Source: a virus
IMG/VR virus record: IMGVR_UViG_3300007351_000592
Location: 1 to 31,576 of that record
Reading direction: 5' to 3' (one strand)
Length of the DNA stretch: 31,576 nucleotides
Numbering within the stretch: the stretch's first letter is position 1; every line of letters begins with the position of its first letter. The notes below the pieces were generated by a model, which made no database searches, had not been told where the DNA came from, and worked only from the letters and a program-made list of their open reading frames with translations. Positions 1 through 27,034 of the stretch are shown here, one piece after another. The position numbers and the translations under genes are program-made.

Positions 1-1104
1 ATGGTTAACGGGGACCGTATACGGCAGGCCCGAGAGATCCGAGGACTCACTCAAAATGAACTTGCCAATAAGATCGGGATCTCCCAAGCGGCTATCGCGC
101 AGTTCGAAGGAAATCTTGCCGCACCTTCACAGGAAAAGCTCGAGGCCATCGCTCTTCAGGCAGGATTTCCAATCGCCTTCTTCAAACAGCCTTCATCCCT
201 CGACTTCCCCTTAGGAACTCTTTTATTTAGGGCGAGTGCTTCCGTGAAGTGCGCCGAAAAGAATTCAGTCCGCCAGTACGGGAGACTCGCCTACGAGACC
301 GTCGAAAAAATGGAAACGAAGTTACAGAGCATCTCGCTTCGGCTTCCGAAGTATACAGGCGATCCAATCACCGCGGCCAGCCTGACAAGGTCGTCATTTG
401 GCCTTTCTCCAGACACACCTGTGGGATATCTCATTGACACCATCGAAAAAAGCGGCGTTATGGTGCTGTCGATTCCTAAAGCCATCGACAAACATGATGC
501 CTTTTCTCTGTGGACAGGCAAGGATCTTCAACGGCCAGTGATTGTAATAGCCACGAACGGACCGGCGGACCGGCTCCGGTTCAGCGTTGCACATGAATTG
601 GGACACTTGGTGATGCACCAGAAGATCGACAAAGATCTCAACGAGATGGAGCGGGAGGCTAACCGTTTCGCGGGGGAACTTCTCATGCCAGAAACGGCCA
701 TGCTGAAGGAGATCATCCCACCGGTGACGTTGATGAGCCTGCAAAGGTTGGGCGGCCGCTGGAAGGTTTCTGTTCAGGCATTGATGAAGAGGGCGAACAC
801 CCTCGAGATCATCTCCTTGCGGCAATATAAATACCTCCTTCAGCAATTGGGGGCGCGGGGATTACGCACCGAATCGTTGGTAAACATTCCTTTAGAAAGA
901 CCGCGTGCCGTGAGGCAGATGGCCGAGATGATTTACGGCAACATCATCGACTATAAAAAGATGGCTGCCGATCTGAATCTGCCGCCCACGATGGTTGAGG
1001 AAATGTTGGAGAAATATGCCGAGAAGCACAGACGCCATTACCTGGCGGGAGAGGGAAAAGCAATCGGCGCTGGGAAGCTATTGGCGTTCGTGAAGAAGAA
1101 ATAG
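1..1104 (+). CDS. XRE-family regulator with ImmA/IrrE-type metallopeptidase domain
   Basis: The N-terminal ~65 residues form an XRE-type helix-turn-helix (LTQNELANKIGISQAAIAQFEG). The middle of the protein carries a zinc metallopeptidase signature, HELGH at residues 198-202, followed by EREANRFAGELLMP at 217-230. This is the arrangement of COG2856 (ImmA/IrrE) proteins. In this family the peptidase cleaves or inactivates a partner repressor, and the HTH binds DNA. It is a plausible lysogeny or stress regulator, or the antitoxin-like half of a toxin-antitoxin pair. The ATG is the first base of the window, so upstream extension cannot be excluded, although the N-terminus looks complete for an XRE domain. 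It reads opposite to the late phage genes and may belong to the phage edge or to the host. Confidence 0.88.
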   Translation: MVNGDRIRQAREIRGLTQNELANKIGISQAAIAQFEGNLAAPSQEKLEAIALQAGFPIAFFKQPSSLDFPLGTLLFRASASVKCAEKNSVRQYGRLAYETVEKMETKLQSISLRLPKYTGDPITAASLTRSSFGLSPDTPVGYLIDTIEKSGVMVLSIPKAIDKHDAFSLWTGKDLQRPVIVIATNGPADRLRFSVAHELGHLVMHQKIDKDLNEMEREANRFAGELLMPETAMLKEIIPPVTLMSLQRLGGRWKVSVQALMKRANTLEIISLRQYKYLLQQLGARGLRTESLVNIPLERPRAVRQMAEMIYGNIIDYKKMAADLNLPPTMVEEMLEKYAEKHRRHYLAGEGKAIGAGKLLAFVKKK

Positions 1105-1730: not shown

Positions 1731-2018
1731 TTACTTTTTCGTATGACAACCGTTGCAGGGATTAATGTTCGCCGAATGGTGAGTTTCGGACACCTTTCTG
1801 GCGTCATCCTTGCTGTCGACAGCGTGGGCCGTAATATCTTTTTGCACCATCGCCACCTGTAGCCTAAGAGCGACGATATCCTTCTGTGTGGAGACGATGT
1901 CCTTCTGCGTGGAGACAGCCGTTATTAGGAGCCAGCCCATCAACCCCATGACCCCCACCGGGGCATAGTCTCTCATCCATTGAAGCGGGGTCGCCCTCCT
2001 GCGCTCGACGTGGGTCAT
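1731..2018 (-). CDS. Small membrane-anchored coiled-coil protein with C-terminal CxxCH haem motif (lysis region)
   Basis: This 95-residue protein has a basic N-terminus (VERRR) and one membrane segment at about residues 19-35. A tandem heptad follows (STQKDIV twice, 36-49), continuing into a coiled coil to about residue 61. It ends with a hydrophilic tail containing CNGCH at 88-92, three residues from the C-terminus. By the positive-inside rule the tail would be periplasmic, the compartment where c-type haem is attached to CxxCH. The gene follows holin and endolysin genes, and its single membrane segment plus periplasmic coiled coil recalls an inner-membrane spanin. GGGAGG lies upstream of the ATG. 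The function is not established. The haem motif is seen directly; haem attachment is inference. Confidence 0.7.
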   Translation of the reverse strand: MTHVERRRATPLQWMRDYAPVGVMGLMGWLLITAVSTQKDIVSTQKDIVALRLQVAMVQKDITAHAVDSKDDARKVSETHHSANINPCNGCHTKK

Positions 2019-2123
2019 CGCGATCCCTCCCGAGAGATTCTCCGATGGCCAGACAGAGAACGCGACCTTCTGGAGTTAATACGTCCGACGCGAGACAGTC
2101 CCTGACTGGACAGCCGGGGCAGT

Positions 2124-2612
2124 CTATTTCCCGACCCCCTTAATCTTCTCGACCGACCGCATCGTTCCGAGGCCGAGCATCCCTGTGAGGAGCACGATCA
2201 AGTCGCCCATCGGCACTTCAGGTAGCAGAGGAACAACCGACTTCTGCCCGATCGCAAGGGCTCCCACCTGAAATACCCACGGGAGCAGAGGCTTCAGGAT
2301 GAACGTGTAGAAAAGACCCGCCACGCATACCCACCCCACGGAAGGACGCCAGCGGGTGACGAAAGGGTCCGCGCTCGCCGCTTCGAGTTTCTGAACGGCG
2401 ACCTGCCCCTCCATCTGCGTCCGGTCGTAATCCGCCGCCGCCTGGAGGGACGCCGCCTCGAGAGCCTGGATCTGTACAAGCAGTTCGGCCCTCTTGTTCG
2501 GGTCGATCGGCGCTTCGCCGGTGATCGCCGTCCGAAGATCCTTGGCGAAGGTCCCGAGGCCCTGCGCCAGTCCCTGCACTCCTCCCGCCAGAAGCTGGTC
2601 GAAGAATCCCAT
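2124..2612 (-). CDS. Holin of the 3TM family
   Basis: This 162-residue protein resembles the three-transmembrane holin family seen in gene transfer agents and proteobacterial phages. It begins MGFFDQLL with an amphipathic stretch. A charged helical region runs from about residue 40 to 80. Then comes the family landmark DPFVTRWRPSVGWVC, followed by hydrophobic segments near 94-118 and 133-150. The protein would sit in the inner membrane and permeabilise it at lysis, giving the endolysin access to peptidoglycan. It is directly downstream of the endolysin gene in the same orientation. The short C-terminal basic tail (SVEKIKGVGK) is usual for holins. Confidence 0.8.
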   Translation of the reverse strand: MGFFDQLLAGGVQGLAQGLGTFAKDLRTAITGEAPIDPNKRAELLVQIQALEAASLQAAADYDRTQMEGQVAVQKLEAASADPFVTRWRPSVGWVCVAGLFYTFILKPLLPWVFQVGALAIGQKSVVPLLPEVPMGDLIVLLTGMLGLGTMRSVEKIKGVGK

Positions 2613-2702: not shown

Positions 2703-3143
2703 TTACCCCTCGCCACCGAGGCAGGTCTTGTAGAGGTCATAGCAGCGGAACAACCACCCCCACCGGTTGGCCCGGACGGAGTGCTCGAGTTTGCGCGCGA
2801 CCCGGATGTGCTTCATTACGCGCCGCAGGAGCCAGCCTTCCCAGGAGGACGCCTTCGGATCGATCGCCTGAACGTCGTCCATGCCGAGGTTGAAGGCGGT
2901 GTCGAACACCAGGAGGTCCAATGGCCACGGCCGGCTGTCACACCTGGCGGGGATCCAGTACTCTTTCATGGCGACCTGCTTCGCCTGGTCCTCGGTGAGG
3001 TCCTCGATGTTGAGCTCGGGGTGGTGATGCCCCGAGATCCCGAACTTCGTCGTTCCCCCCGGGTCGGTCGGATCCTTGGTGACCTTGGCGCCGCCTTCCC
3101 ATCCTTGCGTGAAGGCCCAACAGCGATCGAAATTCTGCTCCAT
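2703..3143 (-). CDS. Endolysin, GH108-type peptidoglycan muramidase
   Basis: The N-terminus carries the glycoside hydrolase 108 signature: WEGG at residues 15-18, with Glu16 the expected catalytic acid, then DPTDPGGTTKFGIS. Enzymes of this family cleave the glycan backbone of peptidoglycan and often carry a C-terminal peptidoglycan-binding part. Later landmarks are KEYWIPARCD and VFDTAFNLG. At 146 residues it is slightly short for the family. A TTG lies four codons upstream, but the ATG at 3143 is chosen because GGAGG sits five bases before it. No signal peptide is seen, so release would depend on the adjacent holin. A terminator-like hairpin lies just upstream of the gene. Confidence 0.85.
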   Translation of the reverse strand: MEQNFDRCWAFTQGWEGGAKVTKDPTDPGGTTKFGISGHHHPELNIEDLTEDQAKQVAMKEYWIPARCDSRPWPLDLLVFDTAFNLGMDDVQAIDPKASSWEGWLLRRVMKHIRVARKLEHSVRANRWGWLFRCYDLYKTCLGGEG

Positions 3144-3153
3144 CGTTCCTCCC

Positions 3154-3180
3154 AAAATAAAAAACCCCGCCGAGGCGGGG
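3154..3180 (-). terminator. Rho-independent terminator-like hairpin upstream of the endolysin
   Basis: On the minus strand CCCCGC-CTCG-GCGGGG is followed by TTTTTTATTTT and then directly by the endolysin's GGGAGG ribosome site. It falls between the fibre-like gene and the lysis genes. It may attenuate readthrough from the tail operon or stabilise the lysis mRNA. The same layout recurs before the capsid gene and before the gp10-like gene. Confidence 0.75.
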
Positions 3181-3208
3181 CCGCGTCTAAATTTTGAATC
3201 TGGTACCG

Positions 3209-4318: not shown

Positions 4319-6535
4319 TCACCAGATGTAGTAGCCTGCGTCCTCGTTTTCCATCACACCCGTGTCGAGCGTGATGAATCCGAACTCCTTCTGCGCGTCC
4401 GTGGCGGTCAGGTAATTCGGGTATCCATCCGGAGCAATCAGCGCTAGGCGCCGCGTTGACACTCTCAGGAGCGAGACCTTCAGCGAAAAGTCATCTTGCA
4501 GTTCCCGCTTCACCACCTGGAATATCTCGTTGGTGATGGGGTCCCCGTTGAACTTGACCAGCTCGTCGGTATCCAGTCGCACATGGTCCCCGGTCTTGAT
4601 CGCGAGGTCGCGCAAGGAGAGGGAGAGCGCGATCAGCGGCTGCGCGTCCCGGCTTCTGCGTACCTGCCGCATCCCGAGATTCTTGACATAGGTCTCGGCG
4701 GAATCCTCCTCATTCGTTATCGGGTCGATCCAACGGCAGAAGACCTTCTTTTCGACGACGTCCCCGTACGAGGCTTCCGCATCCGCGTCCACCGCAATGT
4801 CCAGGCGGTCGAAGGCCGCCGGATCGTCCTTTTTCCCGAGAACGGATTTATGCCAGTAGATCAGCATCCGGGTCAGCCGGGATTTTTCGTTGAAATCCAC
4901 GGAGGCCGAGTTGTCGACGATGTTTCCGCCGTCCGTCATCCGGTAGTAGACCCGCCCCGGAGCATTCTGGACGTTGCGCCGAATCGTGATCCGCAAGTCC
5001 TCTCCGACCCACGCCTTCGCGTCGAGGATGTTGGTGATCTCGAAGAACAGTTTGTCGAGGCTCTCCGGCTCGGAGAGCACCGCGCGAAACAATTTATCGT
5101 TCCCGGGAGTCCGTTTCGCCAGTGCGAACGCGGCGAGATCAATGTCCGCATCCGCAATTCCGGCATCCACCCTCAACATCTCCAGGAGGATGTCCCAGGG
5201 ATTCGCCGGTGCGTAGTAGCGGACCGCCTGGACCTTATCCTTCGCATGGTACTCATCCGCCACGGTGCCGAAGGCTCCGCGCGTTAGCGTCTGGAGGGCT
5301 TTCGTCGTGACGTTTATCGTTGCGTAGCCGATGATCTCGTCTTTGATCCGAATGTACCCAGCGGCGGAACCCAACCCCTCAACGCTGGTGAGCGTGATCT
5401 GTCCAGCCTCTACGGCCGACAGGTCCGACGCCAACTTGATATCGAGTTTCGGAGGGACGTCGATTTTGGAGAGGTCTTTCAGCAGATCCGTGGACTCGAA
5501 CGTGAACTCTCCGTTCTGCGTCGTCACGTTCGTCAGTTTCCCAACCCACGTCCTGGTGAACTCCGACTCGGCCATCCCGACTTGGCCCTCGTAAATCTCC
5601 ATCAGGCGGCCCTTGTAATTCGGGTTCCGGGACATGAACCGTTTCCAGTACGAGCGGACGGTGATGGGTCTCGGCAGAGGTGCTGGAGGTGCTGGAACCT
5701 CTGCGCCAACCGTGACACCCTCGGGGAGGTAAAACTCGTCGTTTCCCTCGCCCACCGTTCCCACTTGAGAAACAAAGCTAAGATCAGATTTTAATCTTTG
5801 AACAACACGACATATTCCTGGCTCATATTGATATTCGGAATTATATATGTACGTATCATCGCAGGTGATGTATTTATTATAATTGTTATAAGGATAGCCA
5901 ATGTTTATTTGAGACACATACGATAAATCGGACTTTAATCTTTTAACAATCCGCCTATTGCTTGAATCGCATATGTATATATAAGTATCATCAACTGTTA
6001 CTCCAATAGGAGTCCAGAACTGGTCGTCACCAGAACCATACGTTCCTATTTGCGAGTCATAATCAAGGTTTGATTTTAATCTTTTAACTATTCGATAATC
6101 ATTTCCGTCGCATACATACATATAAGTATCATCAATGGCTACATCGCCAATGCCATAACCCGAGTCTACTTGCGAATCGTAACTGAGATCCGACTTTAGT
6201 CTTTTAACAATCCGACTATTCATCCCATCGCGGACATATATGTAAGTATCATCAACTGCTATACCTGTAGGCCTGTAGAACTGATCGTCGCCTGAACCAT
6301 TTGATCCTATTTGTGAAACGTACGCTAAATCAGAGACATTTCTTTTAACAATACGATGATTATATGTGTCGCATATATATAAATAGACGCCATCAGAAGC
6401 AATACCCGTAGGACGATAGAACTGGTCATCGCCAGAACCTTGAGTACCTATCTGCGATACATACGACAGGTCAGACAATAGTCTCTTTACAATGCGGTGA
6501 TTTCTGTTGTCCGCCACGTAAAGATGGGCGCTCAT
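4319..6535 (-). CDS. Tail hub protein, C-terminal part, fused to an N-terminal NHL-type beta-propeller
   Basis: Residues 1 to about 270 are six propeller blades of 40-48 residues with a repeated core (YIYICD..N.RIVKRLKSDLSYVSQIG..GSGDDQF), typical of NHL repeats. A proline-rich linker (VPAPPAPLPRP) leads into a tail-hub or host-specificity-like region starting near residue 288 (SYWKRFMSRNPNYKGRLMEI). That part includes an IKDEIIGYATI / LTRGAFGTVADEYHAKDKV segment typical of such proteins. It would form the tail tip, with the propeller a candidate receptor-binding or docking module. The propeller DNA is much more AT-rich than the rest. The upstream ORF ends at a TGA 12 nt before this ATG in the same frame, so the two may be one interrupted protein. 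GAGG about 10 nt upstream could allow independent initiation. Confidence 0.72.
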   Translation of the reverse strand: MSAHLYVADNRNHRIVKRLLSDLSYVSQIGTQGSGDDQFYRPTGIASDGVYLYICDTYNHRIVKRNVSDLAYVSQIGSNGSGDDQFYRPTGIAVDDTYIYVRDGMNSRIVKRLKSDLSYDSQVDSGYGIGDVAIDDTYMYVCDGNDYRIVKRLKSNLDYDSQIGTYGSGDDQFWTPIGVTVDDTYIYICDSSNRRIVKRLKSDLSYVSQINIGYPYNNYNKYITCDDTYIYNSEYQYEPGICRVVQRLKSDLSFVSQVGTVGEGNDEFYLPEGVTVGAEVPAPPAPLPRPITVRSYWKRFMSRNPNYKGRLMEIYEGQVGMAESEFTRTWVGKLTNVTTQNGEFTFESTDLLKDLSKIDVPPKLDIKLASDLSAVEAGQITLTSVEGLGSAAGYIRIKDEIIGYATINVTTKALQTLTRGAFGTVADEYHAKDKVQAVRYYAPANPWDILLEMLRVDAGIADADIDLAAFALAKRTPGNDKLFRAVLSEPESLDKLFFEITNILDAKAWVGEDLRITIRRNVQNAPGRVYYRMTDGGNIVDNSASVDFNEKSRLTRMLIYWHKSVLGKKDDPAAFDRLDIAVDADAEASYGDVVEKKVFCRWIDPITNEEDSAETYVKNLGMRQVRRSRDAQPLIALSLSLRDLAIKTGDHVRLDTDELVKFNGDPITNEIFQVVKRELQDDFSLKVSLLRVSTRRLALIAPDGYPNYLTATDAQKEFGFITLDTGVMENEDAGYYIW
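5765..6535 (-). repeat. NHL-type blade repeats, AT-rich
   Basis: Six tandem repeats of about 120-145 nt encode the propeller blades. Recurring DNA includes the stretches encoding YIYICD, RIVKRLKSDL and GSGDDQF. Blades 3 and 5 lack the GSGDDQF element. The segment is rich in A and T (runs such as tataattgttataagg on the plus strand) and contrasts sharply with the GC-rich tail genes on either side, pointing to separate ancestry. Confidence 0.8.
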
Positions 6536-13725: not shown

Positions 13726-15639
13726 TCAGGTGATGCTAGTCGCGAGGGTGAAAGCGACCGGGTGCCGGACCGCCACGTCGACGGACTGGAAGGCCACGAT
13801 CCGGACCGTCCCTGTCGTGCTGCCGGAGTAGGGATCAACCAGGATGTCCAGGACTCCCCACTCGCCCATCATGACCTGCGTGAAGTCGCCGAAGAACATG
13901 TCCCCTGCGGCGACCTGGTTGGTGACCTCTACCGGGTAACCGTTTAACTGGTTGTCCTCGATCATGAACACGGGATAGGTCGTCCCGACCTTCGGGCGGG
14001 CTTTCAAAAGCCCGCGTACGGTCGCGTTAGCGACGTACCGCATGCCGGCCACGTCGGCGTTCGCCGCGGCAACCAGCGTCTCCATGTTGACCGCGTTCCC
14101 CCACGTGAACGACGCGCCGGCCTCGGAGCCGATCCCGCTGACTCCGGCAATGCCCAACGGCTGGCCGTTGGCACCCGTCCCGTGGAACAAGGCAAGGTCG
14201 ATGGCCAGAGCGAGGATCTTGGAGAGGTCGCCCTGCACAAGCCCGTCAACCGCAGGGGTTCCCTGGAGGAGCAGTTGGCGGGAGAAGTCGGTATAGGCAC
14301 CGACCGTCTTCGGGGAGAGGGTGACCTGCCCGAAGGTCTGGTTCCCGGCCGTGGGGGCCGTGTTCTCCGCCACCCAGTACGCGGTCGCTGCAGCGGTGAA
14401 CGAGGGAATCGCGATGTTGCCGACCAGCCCGGAGAGCATCTGGATCCCAAGTTTGGTCGCGATCATCCGGTTCCGGAGCAACTCGATGAACAGGTCCGGC
14501 CGCAGCGTCGTACCGACCAGACTTGCCCCAGTGGTGGAACCACCCGCCGTCAGGACGGTCCGCTGCTCGGTGCGCAGCGGCACGTCGTAGGGGACAAAGA
14601 ACGTCCCCCGCTTGTTGTACCCCTCCTTGGAGACCCGCTTCTCGATCGCCATCGAGCATTCCCGCTCGAACCCCGCCTGGCTCCAGTCTCCGTTGATGGC
14701 GGCGGCGATGGCCCGGCCGATCGAGTACCGCTTCCTGTCCCCCTCGGACATCCCGAGGTCGGACGGAGGCGTGTCGAGGGGCTTGGTCGTCCCGATGTGC
14801 TTCAAGACGTTGTGGCGGAACTGCTCGATGGAGAGTCCGTCGTTGATCGCCTTGTCGCGCTCCTGCACGGGGAAGCTGTGGCGCGAGGCGAGCGCGGTGA
14901 TCTCGGCGATCCTCTCCCGCTCCGCCTTCTGGATCGCATCCCGGTTCTCCTGCTCCTTCTCCTCCTTCTGTGCTTTGGCCCGCTGTTCTGCGGCCAACTC
15001 TTCTGCGGTCTTGTCTGGCATGAGTTGAACCTCCTTGGCCACGTGGGCCGGTATTTCGACGGGGCCTTTCGGCTCCAACGCCGATTCCTTGCTTCTGCCC
15101 ACGCCGACGGAGGTATCCGCCGGGATGGGGACCATGCTCACCTCGTAGGGAGTCCAGCGTCTGATCCGGTAGACGGGGGCCTGCTCTTTGAGGGCGAGAG
15201 TCTTCAATTCCTCGCCCATTTCCTCCGGCTTCATCTGGACCGGGTCTTCGTCGATGGAGTAGCCCACGGAGACGTTGCGGCGAATGCCATCCTGGACGTC
15301 CCGGAAGACCTCCTCGCCAAGCACGGATCGCGAGAACCGAACCGTCGCCCGCCCCATCTTGTCCGGGTCGCACCGGCAGTCCTCGACCACGCCGATCTGT
15401 TTGTCGGTGGAGTGATTCAGGAGAACCGCTCCGCCGTTCTGCATCCGGGACATATCCATCGCGCCCGGATCGTGGGAAAGGATTTCGATCCCCCACCAGC
15501 GGACAACCGGCTGCTCGGAAGAAAACGCAAGGGTCACCGTGCGCTTCTCTCCATCGATGGAGCTTTTTTCGATCGTCACCGCCCGGGACTCTTTGGATCC
15601 CGCCTTTGGGAACTTGCGTTCTTCCACACGATTTGCCAT
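13726..15639 (-). CDS. Fused prohead protease / scaffold / major capsid protein (HK97 type)
   Basis: One 637-residue frame holds three parts. Residues 1 to about 180 are an HK97-type prohead protease (U35-like) with His76 in LLNHSTD, serines in NVSVGYS (about 124/128) and Glu166 in PYEVSMVPIPAD. Residues of about 205-260 form a charged coiled coil (EELAAEQRAKAQKEEKEQE), as in scaffold or delta domains. Residues from about 315 form the HK97-fold capsid, with GFERECSMAIEK and LRNRMIATKLGIQ, through VLDILVDPYS near the end. The protease would free the capsid domain by cutting the linker, so the mature capsid is about 300 residues (inference). Start: the ATG at 15639 has GGGAGG five bases upstream; a GTG two codons earlier overlaps that site. 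Confidence 0.88.
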   Translation of the reverse strand: MANRVEERKFPKAGSKESRAVTIEKSSIDGEKRTVTLAFSSEQPVVRWWGIEILSHDPGAMDMSRMQNGGAVLLNHSTDKQIGVVEDCRCDPDKMGRATVRFSRSVLGEEVFRDVQDGIRRNVSVGYSIDEDPVQMKPEEMGEELKTLALKEQAPVYRIRRWTPYEVSMVPIPADTSVGVGRSKESALEPKGPVEIPAHVAKEVQLMPDKTAEELAAEQRAKAQKEEKEQENRDAIQKAERERIAEITALASRHSFPVQERDKAINDGLSIEQFRHNVLKHIGTTKPLDTPPSDLGMSEGDRKRYSIGRAIAAAINGDWSQAGFERECSMAIEKRVSKEGYNKRGTFFVPYDVPLRTEQRTVLTAGGSTTGASLVGTTLRPDLFIELLRNRMIATKLGIQMLSGLVGNIAIPSFTAAATAYWVAENTAPTAGNQTFGQVTLSPKTVGAYTDFSRQLLLQGTPAVDGLVQGDLSKILALAIDLALFHGTGANGQPLGIAGVSGIGSEAGASFTWGNAVNMETLVAAANADVAGMRYVANATVRGLLKARPKVGTTYPVFMIEDNQLNGYPVEVTNQVAAGDMFFGDFTQVMMGEWGVLDILVDPYSGSTTGTVRIVAFQSVDVAVRHPVAFTLATSIT

Positions 15640-15651
15640 CTCCACCTCCCA

Positions 15652-15683
15652 AAATGAAAAAGACCGAGTCGCCCCGGCCTTCT
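15652..15683 (-). terminator. Terminator-like hairpin before the protease-capsid gene
   Basis: On the minus strand GGCCG..CGGTC (with one G-T pair) is followed by TTTTTCATTTT and then the GGGAGG ribosome site of the protease-capsid gene. It sits just after the portal gene. Full termination here would silence capsid synthesis from the terminase promoter, so it is more likely an attenuator, an antitermination target or an mRNA-stabilising hairpin. Confidence 0.55.
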
Positions 15684-15709
15684 TCCGTTCTTCTTCTTTT
15701 CTGTCCGAC

Positions 15710-17314
15710 CTATGCGTTCGCGCTTACGTCCTTGCCGTTCCCCTTGCCGTTTCCCTTCCCCAATCCGTTGGTGGGTCCGGTCGGGTTTTCCTCAGTCGTC
15801 CCATCCGCCACCGGGTCACTCTTTCCGGCATCCTTCCCCCCGCCTTTGAAATCGAATTCCAACCCCAGTTCTGCCGCGAGGTCGCTCTCCTCCTTGATCT
15901 CCTCGTAGATGTCCTCGAGATCCCCACCCATCTCGGTTACAACCTGCGTGGAGGATTTAAATCCCGCACCCACCGCCGCCCGGGCCGCCTCCACATCCTT
16001 TAGCGGATCCACCCAGGCCCACCGCCTGCCCGTCCACTTCGGAGCGTTGAACTTGTCGAACTTCGATAAAGGCAGCTTTCCGATCGCCCCCATGGTGAGG
16101 GCCATCTCCAGCCAGTTGGCAAACACGGGATTTAGGAGGTTCTCGATCAGCCAGACCTGCCCCTCTTTCCACTCCTCGCGTTCCTCGATTAACCCCGCCC
16201 GGATGGAAGAGAAGTTCACCGAGGACAGATCCTGCGAAAGGGTCGCATACGATGTTCCCAATCCGGCGGCAACGCCGCGCAGGCACGCCTCGATGAACGG
16301 CCCGTGCTGCTGGTCGGGGTACTTCGGATCGTAGGAGTTAAACTTCCAGCCCGGAGGAAGCTTCTCCATCTGCCCGGGCTCGGCGGACATGATGGGGTTG
16401 CCGCTTGCGTCCTTCCCGTCCCCCTCGAACTGATCACCCATTTCCGTTTCGTAAAAACCCATCTTGCAGGCCGACACCCGGGCGTTGATCACCGCCGCCT
16501 CTTCGTATCCAGAGAGCATTTTTAAGCGCAGCATGGAGGGCGTCATCTGCGACACATCCCGGGTGGCGTCCACCCGCTCGGGGTCGTAGAGGTGGATCAT
16601 CTCGGAAGCGGGGATGCGAACGTAGGGACCCCCGCTTTGCTGCGACTGATTCCATCCAAGCGACGGCTGGTACTCCCGAACGTAATACGCGATAGGCTTT
16701 CTCTGCGGGGTGATCTCGATCCCCATCCGGATGATGTTGCCGTTGGGAAGGATGTCGTTGTAGCGCTCGTCGATCAGTTCCGGCTCAATCAACTGGAGCG
16801 CGAAGCCGTAATTGTTAACGCCACTTCCCTTCAGCATCCGGAGGAAGATTTCCCCGTCCCTTTTTACGCCGGTCACACACATCGATTGAACCTTCCGGAA
16901 GGAGAACCGCCCCGATACCTCGCAGATCCCTTTACGGCTCCAGTCGTAGAACTTCTGCTCGATCAGGTCGTTTGCAAACTTGTCCAGCCGGTAGACGATC
17001 CGGCCATCGGGGGCCACGGAAGAGTCCCTCGCTTTGACTTGAAGGGCGAAGCCCTCCGAGCCGACGATGTTCTTCCGGCACGCCCGCAGGTACGCCTTGG
17101 CGTACGGGTCGTTCTGCGTCAGTTCCCGGGCCCGGGAGCGGATCACCTGCATCCCCGCCCGGACATCCGAGTCGGCGCTCGTCGGATAGAAGATCCAGTC
17201 GGAAGTAAGACGTGAGATGTTGCCGGCGGCAAAGCTGCGCTTACCAGCCAACTCGTCCCTGTGGACGAATCCCATCCTGCGTGCGATGCGTCGCAGGATG
17301 CTCACCACGGCCAC
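15710..17314 (-). CDS. Portal protein (lambda gpB-like)
   Basis: This 534-residue protein of the lambda-type portal family forms the dodecameric ring through which DNA enters and leaves the head. Landmarks are SRARELTQNDPYAKAYLR (about 60-80), LQLIEPELIDERYN (about 175-190), IPASEMIHLYDPERVDATRD (about 235-255) and SVNFSSIRAGLIEERE (about 375-390). All of these are conserved along this family. The C-terminus is low-complexity (NGLGKGNGKGNGKD). The 5' end overlaps the gpW-position gene by 13 nt. Portal and protease-capsid are separated by the hairpin at 15.65-15.68 kb. The protein length is normal for the family. Confidence 0.9.
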   Translation of the reverse strand: MAVVSILRRIARRMGFVHRDELAGKRSFAAGNISRLTSDWIFYPTSADSDVRAGMQVIRSRARELTQNDPYAKAYLRACRKNIVGSEGFALQVKARDSSVAPDGRIVYRLDKFANDLIEQKFYDWSRKGICEVSGRFSFRKVQSMCVTGVKRDGEIFLRMLKGSGVNNYGFALQLIEPELIDERYNDILPNGNIIRMGIEITPQRKPIAYYVREYQPSLGWNQSQQSGGPYVRIPASEMIHLYDPERVDATRDVSQMTPSMLRLKMLSGYEEAAVINARVSACKMGFYETEMGDQFEGDGKDASGNPIMSAEPGQMEKLPPGWKFNSYDPKYPDQQHGPFIEACLRGVAAGLGTSYATLSQDLSSVNFSSIRAGLIEEREEWKEGQVWLIENLLNPVFANWLEMALTMGAIGKLPLSKFDKFNAPKWTGRRWAWVDPLKDVEAARAAVGAGFKSSTQVVTEMGGDLEDIYEEIKEESDLAAELGLEFDFKGGGKDAGKSDPVADGTTEENPTGPTNGLGKGNGKGNGKDVSANA

Positions 17315-17904
17315 CTCCAGACGCGGTTAAGCGGCCATGCCCCACGGGATGCGTCATCCCGGAACCGCGTCAGGATCCGGTTTCCCGGTTCCTCCCCTTG
17401 CGCCACCTTCTCTGCGGTCTTCTCCCGGGCTACTTCAGCCTTGTAGAACGATCGCCATCGGATAAGCTCCTCGGGTTTCAGGTACTGGATCTCACGGTTG
17501 TTGATCCGCATGATCGCCTGCGACTTCGTCGCTTGCCCCTCCATCATCGCTTCAATGGCGTCCAGGACCTTCTGAGCGTGCGAGCGCCCATCGAACCCCA
17601 CGTCCTGCGCCACGAGATTCGTCCGGATATGGATAGAACCGCTCGCAATCGTATGCCTTGCGCCGGTCACATCGGTTACGTAGGACTGCCAGGCATAGAT
17701 GCCCGATTGGAGGTAGGTAGACCAGTAGGGTACGGAGAACTTGTGATCCGTTCCGTCATGCGTGGAGACAAGATTTAGTTTCGACGCCCCACGGATGGCA
17801 TAGCGCATCGTCCACGTCGGAGCCGGGTACTCCCCTGCCGATTCCGTCCATGAGAGCGAGTCGCCTGCGTAGATCGTCTCCGGTATCCTTGGCATCAACG
17901 CCAC
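17302..17904 (-). CDS. gpW-position head protein
   Basis: This 200-residue protein lies between large terminase and portal, the place of gpW-type head-tail joining proteins in lambda-like phages. The first 110 residues are beta-rich (YAGDSLSWTESAGEYPAP, YWSTYLQSGIYAWQSYVTD). The C-terminal part is helical, with AIEAMMEGQATKSQ and YLKPEELIRWRSFYKAEVAR. That helical motif is common in this gene position across proteobacterial prophages. The function is probably structural, but the evidence is position plus a partial motif. It overlaps both neighbours (10 nt with terminase, 13 nt with portal), which implies coupled translation. Confidence 0.6.
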   Translation of the reverse strand: MALMPRIPETIYAGDSLSWTESAGEYPAPTWTMRYAIRGASKLNLVSTHDGTDHKFSVPYWSTYLQSGIYAWQSYVTDVTGARHTIASGSIHIRTNLVAQDVGFDGRSHAQKVLDAIEAMMEGQATKSQAIMRINNREIQYLKPEELIRWRSFYKAEVAREKTAEKVAQGEEPGNRILTRFRDDASRGAWPLNRVWRWPW

Positions 17905-19793
17905 CTGTCGACAAACCCGCCACCACTTCGCCTAGGTGCTGCGTGTGGATACTGCGGGGTTATGGTTTGCTGCTCCGGTTGCGCAGGCAAAGGTTCCGGA
18001 ACTTTGACCTGCGCCTCCATCCGCTGCGCGATTCGCTCGAGGTTCGCGTTCAGCGATGCGTATGCGGCGAAGGCGTACACGGCGCAATCAAGCGCTTCGT
18101 TCCTCGCTCGGATCTGTTTCCAGACCCGGGTCGGGATCCCCTTTACGTGCTTCGTCATCAACTTCTCGGCGGTGAGTTGCTTGAACCACTCGTCATCCAC
18201 ATCCCGGGGAAAATGGATGTACCCGGGGCCGAACTCCGACAACCCCAAGCGGGAGAAGAGCAGCCCCTTCGCCGTATCCGTCCCGACAATGCCCAGCACC
18301 ACCTTCGCGCGTGTGCGACGTGGGGTGAGTTTAAGCAACGGCAGCCCGGCCCCGGAGCGCCCGATAATCGCCCAGATGCGTCGCGATTCACGCTTGCGGC
18401 AGAAGTCGTACACCTGCTGAGTGGCATGGCCGCCGGAGTCCACACACGCCGAGGCAATTCGCAGGACCGTGCCCGTAGTGTGGGGGTAGACTTTAAGCAG
18501 CCAGTCGTCCAGATCCCGCCATACCTGAAGCGATGTTTCCGGGTTCCCCCGGAATACCGAATGGCGGATGACCCATGACTCCTCCCCTAGGCCAAACCCC
18601 CAGGCCGTCGCCTCGATCCGATCGCCTTGGACATCGACCCCGGCCGTGAGGAGCAAAATACCTTCAGGAAGTGGATCCCCGATCCCGTAATCCTCGCGGC
18701 GGCCGCCAAGGGCGGCGTCATCAACGGTGATCCCTTCCTCTTCCCAGGTCTCGCCGAGGGAGGTGTTGACCCACACCCGCAGCGTTTCGGGCCGCTTCTT
18801 CGCCTCGAGGAAGTTCTCGACGATGTTTCCCCACGACGACCACGGGGAGTACAACTCGTTGATGTGGAACCCGGCCGTGTGCTTGATCCACGGACGAGCG
18901 ATCACCCACCGGCCGTTGCGGATCATCCGGTGCTTGTCGGGCTCGGTGAGCTGCGCTCGGCAATGTTCACATTCGTATCGGACCCCGACAGGGATTCCTC
19001 GATCGTCTTTCTCCCACTTCAACTGCCCCCAGGAAAGCGTCTGGTAGCTACCGCATACGGGACAGGGAACCTCGTATTGCCGCTGGTCCGACTCCTCCCA
19101 GGCTTGCTCGATCCGGGAGGCACCCTTGGTCGTAGGCGTTGAGGTCAGGATCACCTTCCGGTTCCAGAAGGTGGTTGAGCGCTTAATCGCCAGCTTTACC
19201 GGATCGCCTTCCGTACCTGCAGACGGTGGGAACCGATCCACCTCGTCCAGCAACACCAACCGGACGGGCCGCGAGGATAACGATGCCGCGGAGTTCGCGC
19301 CAGCCATCGCGATCTGGCCCCCCGGGAACTGCTTCTGGCGGAGCGTATTTCCTGAATCCCGGCTGCGGGGGTCTTTCACCAGGCCCTTTAACACCGGCGT
19401 ATCCCGAAGCATCGGAGCTAGACGGTCTTTGCTCCACGTCTCGGCCATCTCGATCGTAGGCTGCACCAGCAGGATCGGAGCCGGGTCCTGGTGGATGTGG
19501 AACCCGATCGCGTTGTTAATAATCTCGGTCTTCCCCACCTGCGCGGAGGACATGACGATCACGGTTTCAATGGATGGGTCCGAGAACGCATCCATCATTC
19601 CGCGCTGGTACTCCGCCCGGGAGGTAAACCACTGCCCGGGCTCGGCGCTACTTTCGGGAGACAGCTTTCGATACCGATCTGCCCACTGGCTTACCGTCAG
19701 CTTCGGGGGTGGCTTCACCAGCCACGCCGTTTCCCTCTTCAGTTTCGATATCGCTCTCTGTACTTCCTGAGTAATCTGCATGGCTGAGTTCAT
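17895..19793 (-). CDS. Terminase large subunit, GpA family
   Basis: This 632-residue packaging motor resembles the lambda GpA family. LTVSQWADRYRKLSPESSAE near residue 32 is the family opening. The Walker A-like SSAQVGKT is at 82-89 and the Walker B LVLLDEVDRFP at about 179-189. A CPVCG...CEHC zinc knuckle lies at 244-278. The nuclease half contains AGVDVQGDRIEATAWGFG (about 395-412). It binds the small subunit and portal, cuts concatemers and pumps DNA into the head. GpA-type terminases usually make cohesive ends, so a cos site is expected near the small-subunit gene; I did not identify one. The first 146 nt overlap the small terminase gene in another frame. Confidence 0.92.
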   Translation of the reverse strand: MNSAMQITQEVQRAISKLKRETAWLVKPPPKLTVSQWADRYRKLSPESSAEPGQWFTSRAEYQRGMMDAFSDPSIETVIVMSSAQVGKTEIINNAIGFHIHQDPAPILLVQPTIEMAETWSKDRLAPMLRDTPVLKGLVKDPRSRDSGNTLRQKQFPGGQIAMAGANSAASLSSRPVRLVLLDEVDRFPPSAGTEGDPVKLAIKRSTTFWNRKVILTSTPTTKGASRIEQAWEESDQRQYEVPCPVCGSYQTLSWGQLKWEKDDRGIPVGVRYECEHCRAQLTEPDKHRMIRNGRWVIARPWIKHTAGFHINELYSPWSSWGNIVENFLEAKKRPETLRVWVNTSLGETWEEEGITVDDAALGGRREDYGIGDPLPEGILLLTAGVDVQGDRIEATAWGFGLGEESWVIRHSVFRGNPETSLQVWRDLDDWLLKVYPHTTGTVLRIASACVDSGGHATQQVYDFCRKRESRRIWAIIGRSGAGLPLLKLTPRRTRAKVVLGIVGTDTAKGLLFSRLGLSEFGPGYIHFPRDVDDEWFKQLTAEKLMTKHVKGIPTRVWKQIRARNEALDCAVYAFAAYASLNANLERIAQRMEAQVKVPEPLPAQPEQQTITPQYPHAAPRRSGGGFVDRWR

Positions 19794-24509: not shown

Positions 24510-24797
24510 TCACTCTACCGGGCACGATGACATCTGGTGGGTGCCTTTAAAATAAATTCCACCTTTGCATCGCTCTGAATCCTGGCGAGACAGATGTTCC
24601 ACATGGTCCACAGGGCCATGGGGTACTTGCTGCTTATGGACGCGTACTGCCCCATGGCAATGCATGCATCGGATTTGACCTCTCGCAGCACCACTCATAA
24701 GACTAGAAACTTTCTCCGGACCCCATTCCTCAAATTTCAGTCCATCACGAAGAAATAATTTCTTTTTCTCACATGTCGTCATTAGATCATGAGGCAT
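24510..24797 (-). CDS. Small zinc-finger-like protein (CMHCHG type)
   Basis: This 95-residue protein has a motif, CMHCHGAVRVHKQQ, followed by a histidine-rich segment (VPHGPVDHVEHLSRQDSERC). These cysteines and histidines are arranged as in a compact metal-binding finger, probably zinc. Similar small proteins occur alone in many bacteria, and I cannot assign a function. The CxxCH pattern is not taken as haem attachment because there is no signal peptide or membrane anchor. GGGAG lies upstream of the ATG. It belongs to the AT-richer accessory block and is transcribed with its neighbours on the minus strand. Confidence 0.55.
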   Translation of the reverse strand: MPHDLMTTCEKKKLFLRDGLKFEEWGPEKVSSLMSGAARGQIRCMHCHGAVRVHKQQVPHGPVDHVEHLSRQDSERCKGGIYFKGTHQMSSCPVE

Positions 24798-26037: not shown

Positions 26038-26955
26038 TCACTCCTCTTCGAAATAATCCGAATCTATTCGCTTGATCGAATACGAGGCGATAGCCGAAAC
26101 CCCCAAATCGAAATCGATCATATAAGTGGCCAAAGTAGGGCCATCTATCAACACAACCTTACTGTCGATTCGCGATGCATAATCCTTTGCGTCCGGCGTA
26201 AAAATCGAGGTGGTTATGAATACGCCCTTTCGGGCGCGTTGTCCTTGGAGCGCACCTACAAATTTTTGAATTTCAGGTCGCCCCACAGACCCCTGCCATC
26301 TTTTTGCCTGTATGTATATGACATCGAGTCCAAGGCGATCTTCTTTGATGATTCCATCAATTCCACCATCGCCGCTCTGTCCGATTCGTTCACCAGCGTC
26401 TTGTCGTGATCCGCCGTAACCCATCTTGACAAGGAGTTCCACGACAAGGCGCTCGAAAAATTCCGGTGATAATTTCGAAACACGAGTGAGAAGATCTTGC
26501 GCCAATGCTTCTCGGATCCCAATGTAGGCGCGTTCCAAGGTCTCTTCGGGTGTCTCTTGTTCGTCGGGCGGTGCCACGGGAATCGCGACCTGCTCACCTT
26601 TCGGCTTTCGGGACGCTTCCCGAAATTCGACAAATGACGGAAATTTTTCTAAAAAAGCGATGTTAATGCTTGGGGGGTTGCTCTTGAGAATATCTGAGCC
26701 AGTAGAAGATATTCGAAATACCCCACGTTTCACATGTTCAAGCAATCCAGCTTTCTTTAGATATGTAGAAGCCCAGGCCACCCGATTCGAGAAGATGGGT
26801 TGCTGACCACTCGGAAGAAGAGAGCTACGTTCCTCAGGAGAGAGGCCAAACCTTTCCGCGAGACAATCAATTGCCTCACGAAGAGAATGCTCTTTTCCAT
26901 CTCCCGCGAAGGTGAGGAGGGGCAACATCGTGCTTTGATAATCAGGTATCGGCAT
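26038..26955 (-). CDS. mrr: Mrr-type restriction endonuclease
   Basis: This 305-residue protein has an N-terminal winged-helix-like DNA-binding region (residues 1 to about 95). Its C-terminal PD-(D/E)xK nuclease shows FFERLVVELLVKMGYGG (166-182), SGDGGIDGII (194-203, Asp200 catalytic) and QAKRW (216-220). That core is the Mrr family, whose members cut DNA carrying foreign methylation. The start at 26955 has GGGGGA upstream; a GTG eight codons earlier overlaps it. In a prophage it could exclude other phages or degrade modified competitor DNA, and it coexists with the phage's own methyltransferase. The integron-like GTTAGGT site lies directly upstream. AT-rich composition suggests recent acquisition. 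Confidence 0.85.
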   Translation of the reverse strand: MPIPDYQSTMLPLLTFAGDGKEHSLREAIDCLAERFGLSPEERSSLLPSGQQPIFSNRVAWASTYLKKAGLLEHVKRGVFRISSTGSDILKSNPPSINIAFLEKFPSFVEFREASRKPKGEQVAIPVAPPDEQETPEETLERAYIGIREALAQDLLTRVSKLSPEFFERLVVELLVKMGYGGSRQDAGERIGQSGDGGIDGIIKEDRLGLDVIYIQAKRWQGSVGRPEIQKFVGALQGQRARKGVFITTSIFTPDAKDYASRIDSKVVLIDGPTLATYMIDFDLGVSAIASYSIKRIDSDYFEEE

Positions 26956-26978
26956 ATTTATCCCCCAAAATATGTGCA

Positions 26979-27034
26979 CCTAACGCGTAATAGGCCGCGC
27001 TTGCTTGCCTATCGTATCGCCTGCCATATCTACA
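26979..27034 (-). repeat. Accessory-block repeat unit (copy B of the 57-nt element), with GTTAGGT
   Basis: This is the partner of the element at 25921-25978. It ends with GCGTTAGGTGCAC just before the Mrr gene. GTTAGGT matches the integron attC core consensus GTTRRRY. The full attC fold was not established by eye. Confidence 0.5.

Follow-up and report, generated by a model that had tools for sequence, protein, structure and literature searches.

The closest described systems are the two-component i-spanins, such as lambda Rz and T4 PseT.3, which are small, N-terminally anchored helical proteins encoded beside a holin and an endolysin. The portions of the spanin survey drawn on here cover 677 phages of Gram-negative hosts, 91 of them without a recognisable spanin, and report a cysteine in 507 of 528 two-component spanins and two cysteines in 179 of 526 i-spanins; the same portions describe homotypic disulfides in the lambda and T4 spanins, which link the dimers and are needed (PMC6139136). 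In lambda, according to the excerpted account of that system, the spanins need one of two links to work, at C152 in Rz, its next-to-last residue, or at C29 in Rz1 (PMC5295617). From these published cysteine counts and the lambda and T4 disulfides, cysteines at the tip of a lysis-region protein are expected without haem. Another system for comparison is the c-type cytochromes with their CXXCH motif, and an extract of the work on System I states that CXXCH alone, or little more, is what this system recognises, and that it can act on peptides of 12 residues (PMC3601427).

Here we analysed a 31,576-nucleotide stretch of viral DNA, a record of IMG/VR (the whole of it termed the window), in which three genes follow one another on the minus strand. 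The first encodes a GH108 endolysin of 146 residues (2703..3143; PF05838 at 65 bits against a cut-off of 21.2; phrog_315, endolysin) and the second a holin of 162 residues with three membrane segments (2124..2612; PF11351 at 65.8 bits against a cut-off of 24.8; phrog_3427, holin). Directly after the holin lies the gene under study, at 1731..2018, whose 95-residue product we call P0001. Between the upstream tail gene and the lysis genes, a consensus scan places a terminator-like hairpin with a T-run (3163..3182, minus strand); as the scan found 3 such sites against 2.1 expected, this hairpin is weak evidence by itself.

P0001 is the product of a real gene, as shown by a Shine-Dalgarno sequence (GGGAGG, 2026..2031, minus strand) 7 bases 5′ of its ATG and by codon usage that matches the other genes in its own frame (log-likelihood +0.153 per codon) and falls below zero in all five other frames. 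Its position after the endolysin and the holin supports the first-pass annotation, which had placed it in the lysis region, and makes it a plausible third member of a lysis cassette.

The most hydrophobic 19-residue stretch of P0001 is a predicted membrane segment at residues 19-37 (1908..1964), which with a Kyte-Doolittle value of 1.58, just under the usual threshold of 1.6, would be a weak membrane helix. An AlphaFold2 model gives a single predicted helix at residues 11-76 (1791..1988) that takes in both the membrane segment, where pLDDT peaks, and the coil behind it, followed by a non-helical tail; since the input was a single sequence and mean pLDDT is 67, we trust the model for broad shape only. 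The helix contains two tandem copies of the heptad STQKDIV, at residues 36-42 and 43-49 (1872..1913). The last 19 residues, non-helical in the model, hold H80, H81 and the CNGCH motif at residues 88-92 (1743..1757), and the C-terminus reads NPCNGCHTKK, so that only TKK follows the motif. Translation thus confirms the tandem heptad and the CNGCH motif that had been described from the sequence, and hydropathy and the helix model agree with a small, predicted membrane protein. Four Lys/Arg residues, among them an RRR and a further R in the arginine-rich start, precede the membrane segment and three lie in the 15 residues after it, which favours, not strongly, a cytoplasmic N-terminus and an outward C-terminus.

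Our best reading of P0001 is a membrane-anchored, periplasmic lysis accessory of spanin-like form, with a tip that would be linked by disulfides or by a metal; the disulfide-linked form is the one that we prefer, tentatively and with somewhat less than even confidence. Under this preferred reading, P0001 would be an inner-membrane protein whose N-terminus is cytoplasmic and whose helix reaches into the periplasm and dimerises with another P0001 chain. Like an i-spanin, the protein would serve the outer-membrane step, once the holin and the endolysin have acted. The two tip cysteines would most likely hold the dimer together through disulfides, much as the near-terminal C152 does in the excerpted account of lambda Rz (PMC5295617), and the histidine that follows the pair would make the tip look like a haem site.

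The likeness to an inner-membrane spanin, which the first-pass annotation had drawn, is partly supported, in form, namely in the predicted anchor, the predicted helix and the near-terminal cysteines, and does not extend to the partner. A strict lipobox scan of the whole window returned no candidate for an outer-membrane spanin, and a loose scan near the lysis genes returned four ORFs, none with a fitting signal when judged by eye. P0001 is therefore not filed as an i-spanin, bearing in mind that the record may be a fragment. It also differs from two-component i-spanins in matching no spanin family (against PHROG there was no match at E 1 save an unknown at 0.78) and in the spacing of its cysteines, which form a CxxC followed by a histidine. 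A simple intermolecular disulfide explains the cysteine pair but not this exact CxxCH spacing.

In the strongest alternative, P0001 would be a phage-made, membrane-anchored mono-haem c-type cytochrome with some role, a reading we consider unlikely. In the periplasm, CNGCH would receive its haem from the maturation system of the host; H80, H81 or water would be the distal ligand, and through the haem, lysis or membrane energy might be adjusted to the redox state. The narrower proposal, that P0001 is a true host-matured haemoprotein by which lysis, in its final step, senses or exploits the redox state of the periplasm, we regard as distinctly doubtful. In favour of haem, the exact motif lies on the predicted periplasmic side, as in c-type cytochromes, and is seldom produced by chance, with a CxxCH arising in 223 of 200,000 shuffled versions of P0001. 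Furthermore, in a survey of 126 partly overlapping sequences, a membrane segment followed further on by a CxxCH occurred only in P0001 and in one antisense plasmid ORF. This survey covered 743,129 bases and 4,634 ORFs of at least 45 residues, 22 of them with CxxCH and 626 over a membrane threshold that was lowered to 1.55 so that P0001 is included. Finally, because System I needs little beyond CXXCH in the extract cited above (PMC3601427), a host with System I could modify P0001 with haem, even incidentally.

Across a hand-picked list of 33 genes of the window, shuffling predicts 0.043 genes with CxxCH and two were observed. The second, at 24510-24797 on the minus strand, has a CMHCH at residue 44, more cysteines and no obvious membrane anchor; judged by eye, its product is likely a metal-binding protein. 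Accordingly, CxxCH alone does not equate to haem. The motif in P0001 is unlikely by composition, and the window shows that a periplasmic setting is not needed for it to arise; the observation itself is correct and mildly unusual.

Profile searches argue against haem. P0001 matches no family: its best Pfam score is for the cytochrome profile PSCyt3, at 13 bits against a cut-off of 27, and NCBIfam gave none. The C-terminal peptide matched one chain among the PDB sequences, a cytochrome c3 at a non-significant E of 4.3. Counting against the preferred spanin-like reading, a Foldseek comparison of the model with viral models had no match under E 7. We take neither the fold comparison nor the PDB sequence search to be informative. 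Unlike the c-type cytochromes, P0001 shows no globular cytochrome fold in its model. Among the papers listed by our literature searches, none deals with a haem-bearing lysis protein, and those that mention both spanins and haem are irrelevant by title.

The lack of homologues counts against haem as well. Searches of viral contigs, genome contigs, phages and plasmids returned none, with the proviso that the scans of viral and genome contigs need exact 8-residue matches, which homologues below about 70% identity (our estimate) could escape. A tblastn search against phages to E 10 gave just two chance matches, at E 9, and second scans of genome and viral contigs based on the holin added nothing new. 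A DNA pattern for NPCNGCHT had 2 matches in viral contigs, neither of which is read in frame by a listed gene (frame assigned by hand). Thirteen records carry a portal gene related to that of the window, seven at 74-96% identity and six at 32-38%; P0001 is absent from all of them, and at least four of the close ones stop before the lysis genes.

Next we compared the proteins that occupy the same slot, or lie next to the lysis genes, in other phages. The holin of L002 is 70% identical to the window holin, and no other listed gene of the window is common to both. Its slot gene overlaps the holin stop codon and encodes a 130-residue membrane-plus-helix protein whose only cysteine is residue 126, four residues from the end, a point in favour of the preferred reading. 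BLASTP gave no alignment between this protein and P0001, and from sequence and position we take it to be a positional counterpart, not a homologue. L126 shares the endolysin (77% identity) and the holin (65%) with the window, and the contig stops within its slot gene. Over the parts compared, both L002 and L126 are unlike the window phage elsewhere. Two relatives extend into the lysis region, and they carry another set. In the sister phage L032, with a tail gene 92% identical, this region encodes an amidase, a putative holin of another kind and a membrane-plus-helix protein of 95 residues; in G008, with a portal 74% identical, it encodes an amidase along with similar proteins of the membrane-plus-helix type (labels by eye). 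It thus seems that the lysis module is exchanged as a unit, since its endolysin, its holin or both are shared at 65-77% with otherwise unlike phages.

CxxCH is absent from the slot or lysis-gene-adjacent proteins of L002, L032 and G008, those of L032 and G008 having no cysteine at all; as judged from these sequences, the comparison leans against the motif being general to the slot. We also surveyed loci with related holins. The survey took the best 80 of at least 578 confirmed related-holin loci, among at least 600 stretches, and counted small CxxCH ORFs on the holin strand within 1.8 kb. One locus of the 80, L085, has such an ORF, with a hydropathy of 0.91 and, by eye, the look of a zinc protein, and no CxxCH ORF with a membrane segment was found at the threshold of 1.6, which P0001 at 1.58 would itself miss. 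ORFs above that threshold were present at 52 of the 80 loci, counting mechanical ORFs of which many are surely not genes, and membrane-plus-helix ORFs near the holin are common among these 80 loci, whose holins are more distant. Since it recurs both by related holins and beside the sister phages' own lysis genes, membrane-plus-helix seems to be a recurrent companion architecture.

P0001 resembles these companions (those of L002, L032 and G008, phrog_462 and others) in slot or neighbourhood, in size and in having one membrane segment and then a helix, and differs in its CxxCH. This raises another reading, in which P0001 is a small holin accessory, either an antiholin-like regulator or a superinfection protein, and not a lysis effector, with the CxxCH incidental; we judge this rather improbable. 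It draws on the variety of the membrane-plus-helix proteins found in this slot or neighbourhood, some of which match phrogs of unknown function, of holins or of lipoproteins. Several also have a charge bias that suggests a cytoplasmic coil: in L002, L032 and G008, Lys/Arg residues of the slot protein are more numerous behind the membrane segment than ahead of it, which counts against the preferred reading, so the slot would not be uniformly spanin-like. The bias of P0001 is the opposite, with its arginines ahead of the segment. Among ten slot or neighbour proteins, chosen by eye for this comparison, only L055 and L058 share the positive excess before the segment.

The least probable of the readings, which we hold to be quite unlikely, is that C88, C91 and H92 with H80/H81, or the CxxC of two copies, bind zinc and clasp the dimer, as in the zinc hook to which we liken, as our own assumption, a coil followed by CxxC and histidines; the second CxxCH of the window, in a gene where the setting is probably not one for haem, fits this reading, and against it, P0001 matches no zinc hook in sequence or in fold.

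If haem were bound by P0001, it would couple phage lysis to cytochrome maturation and redox state. If it is not, as the preferred disulfide-linked, spanin-like reading has it, P0001 exemplifies the fast replacement of the third lysis gene while the endolysin and the holin are shared, and shows CxxCH to be a trap when taken for a haem site.

Several other genes in these records are of separate interest. The tail protein encoded at 4319-6535 (minus strand) has NHL-type beta-propeller repeats (PF01436) in its first ~290 residues, and this propeller looks like a variable module because the sister phages L025 and L032 align only from residues 294 and 256 on, respectively. The gene at 1-1104 (plus strand) encodes a regulator with a helix-turn-helix and an IrrE-like protease, which matches the PADLOC RmrA models; the record starts exactly at its start codon, so this end may be the product of trimming to a gene boundary. 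At 26038-26979 (minus strand) the phage carries an Mrr-type restriction endonuclease (Mrr_N and Mrr_cat; a type IV restriction enzyme in PADLOC), and L024, on the same record as a sister phage, holds PglZ-like and BrxL genes, parts of BREX defence, at 14680-19735.
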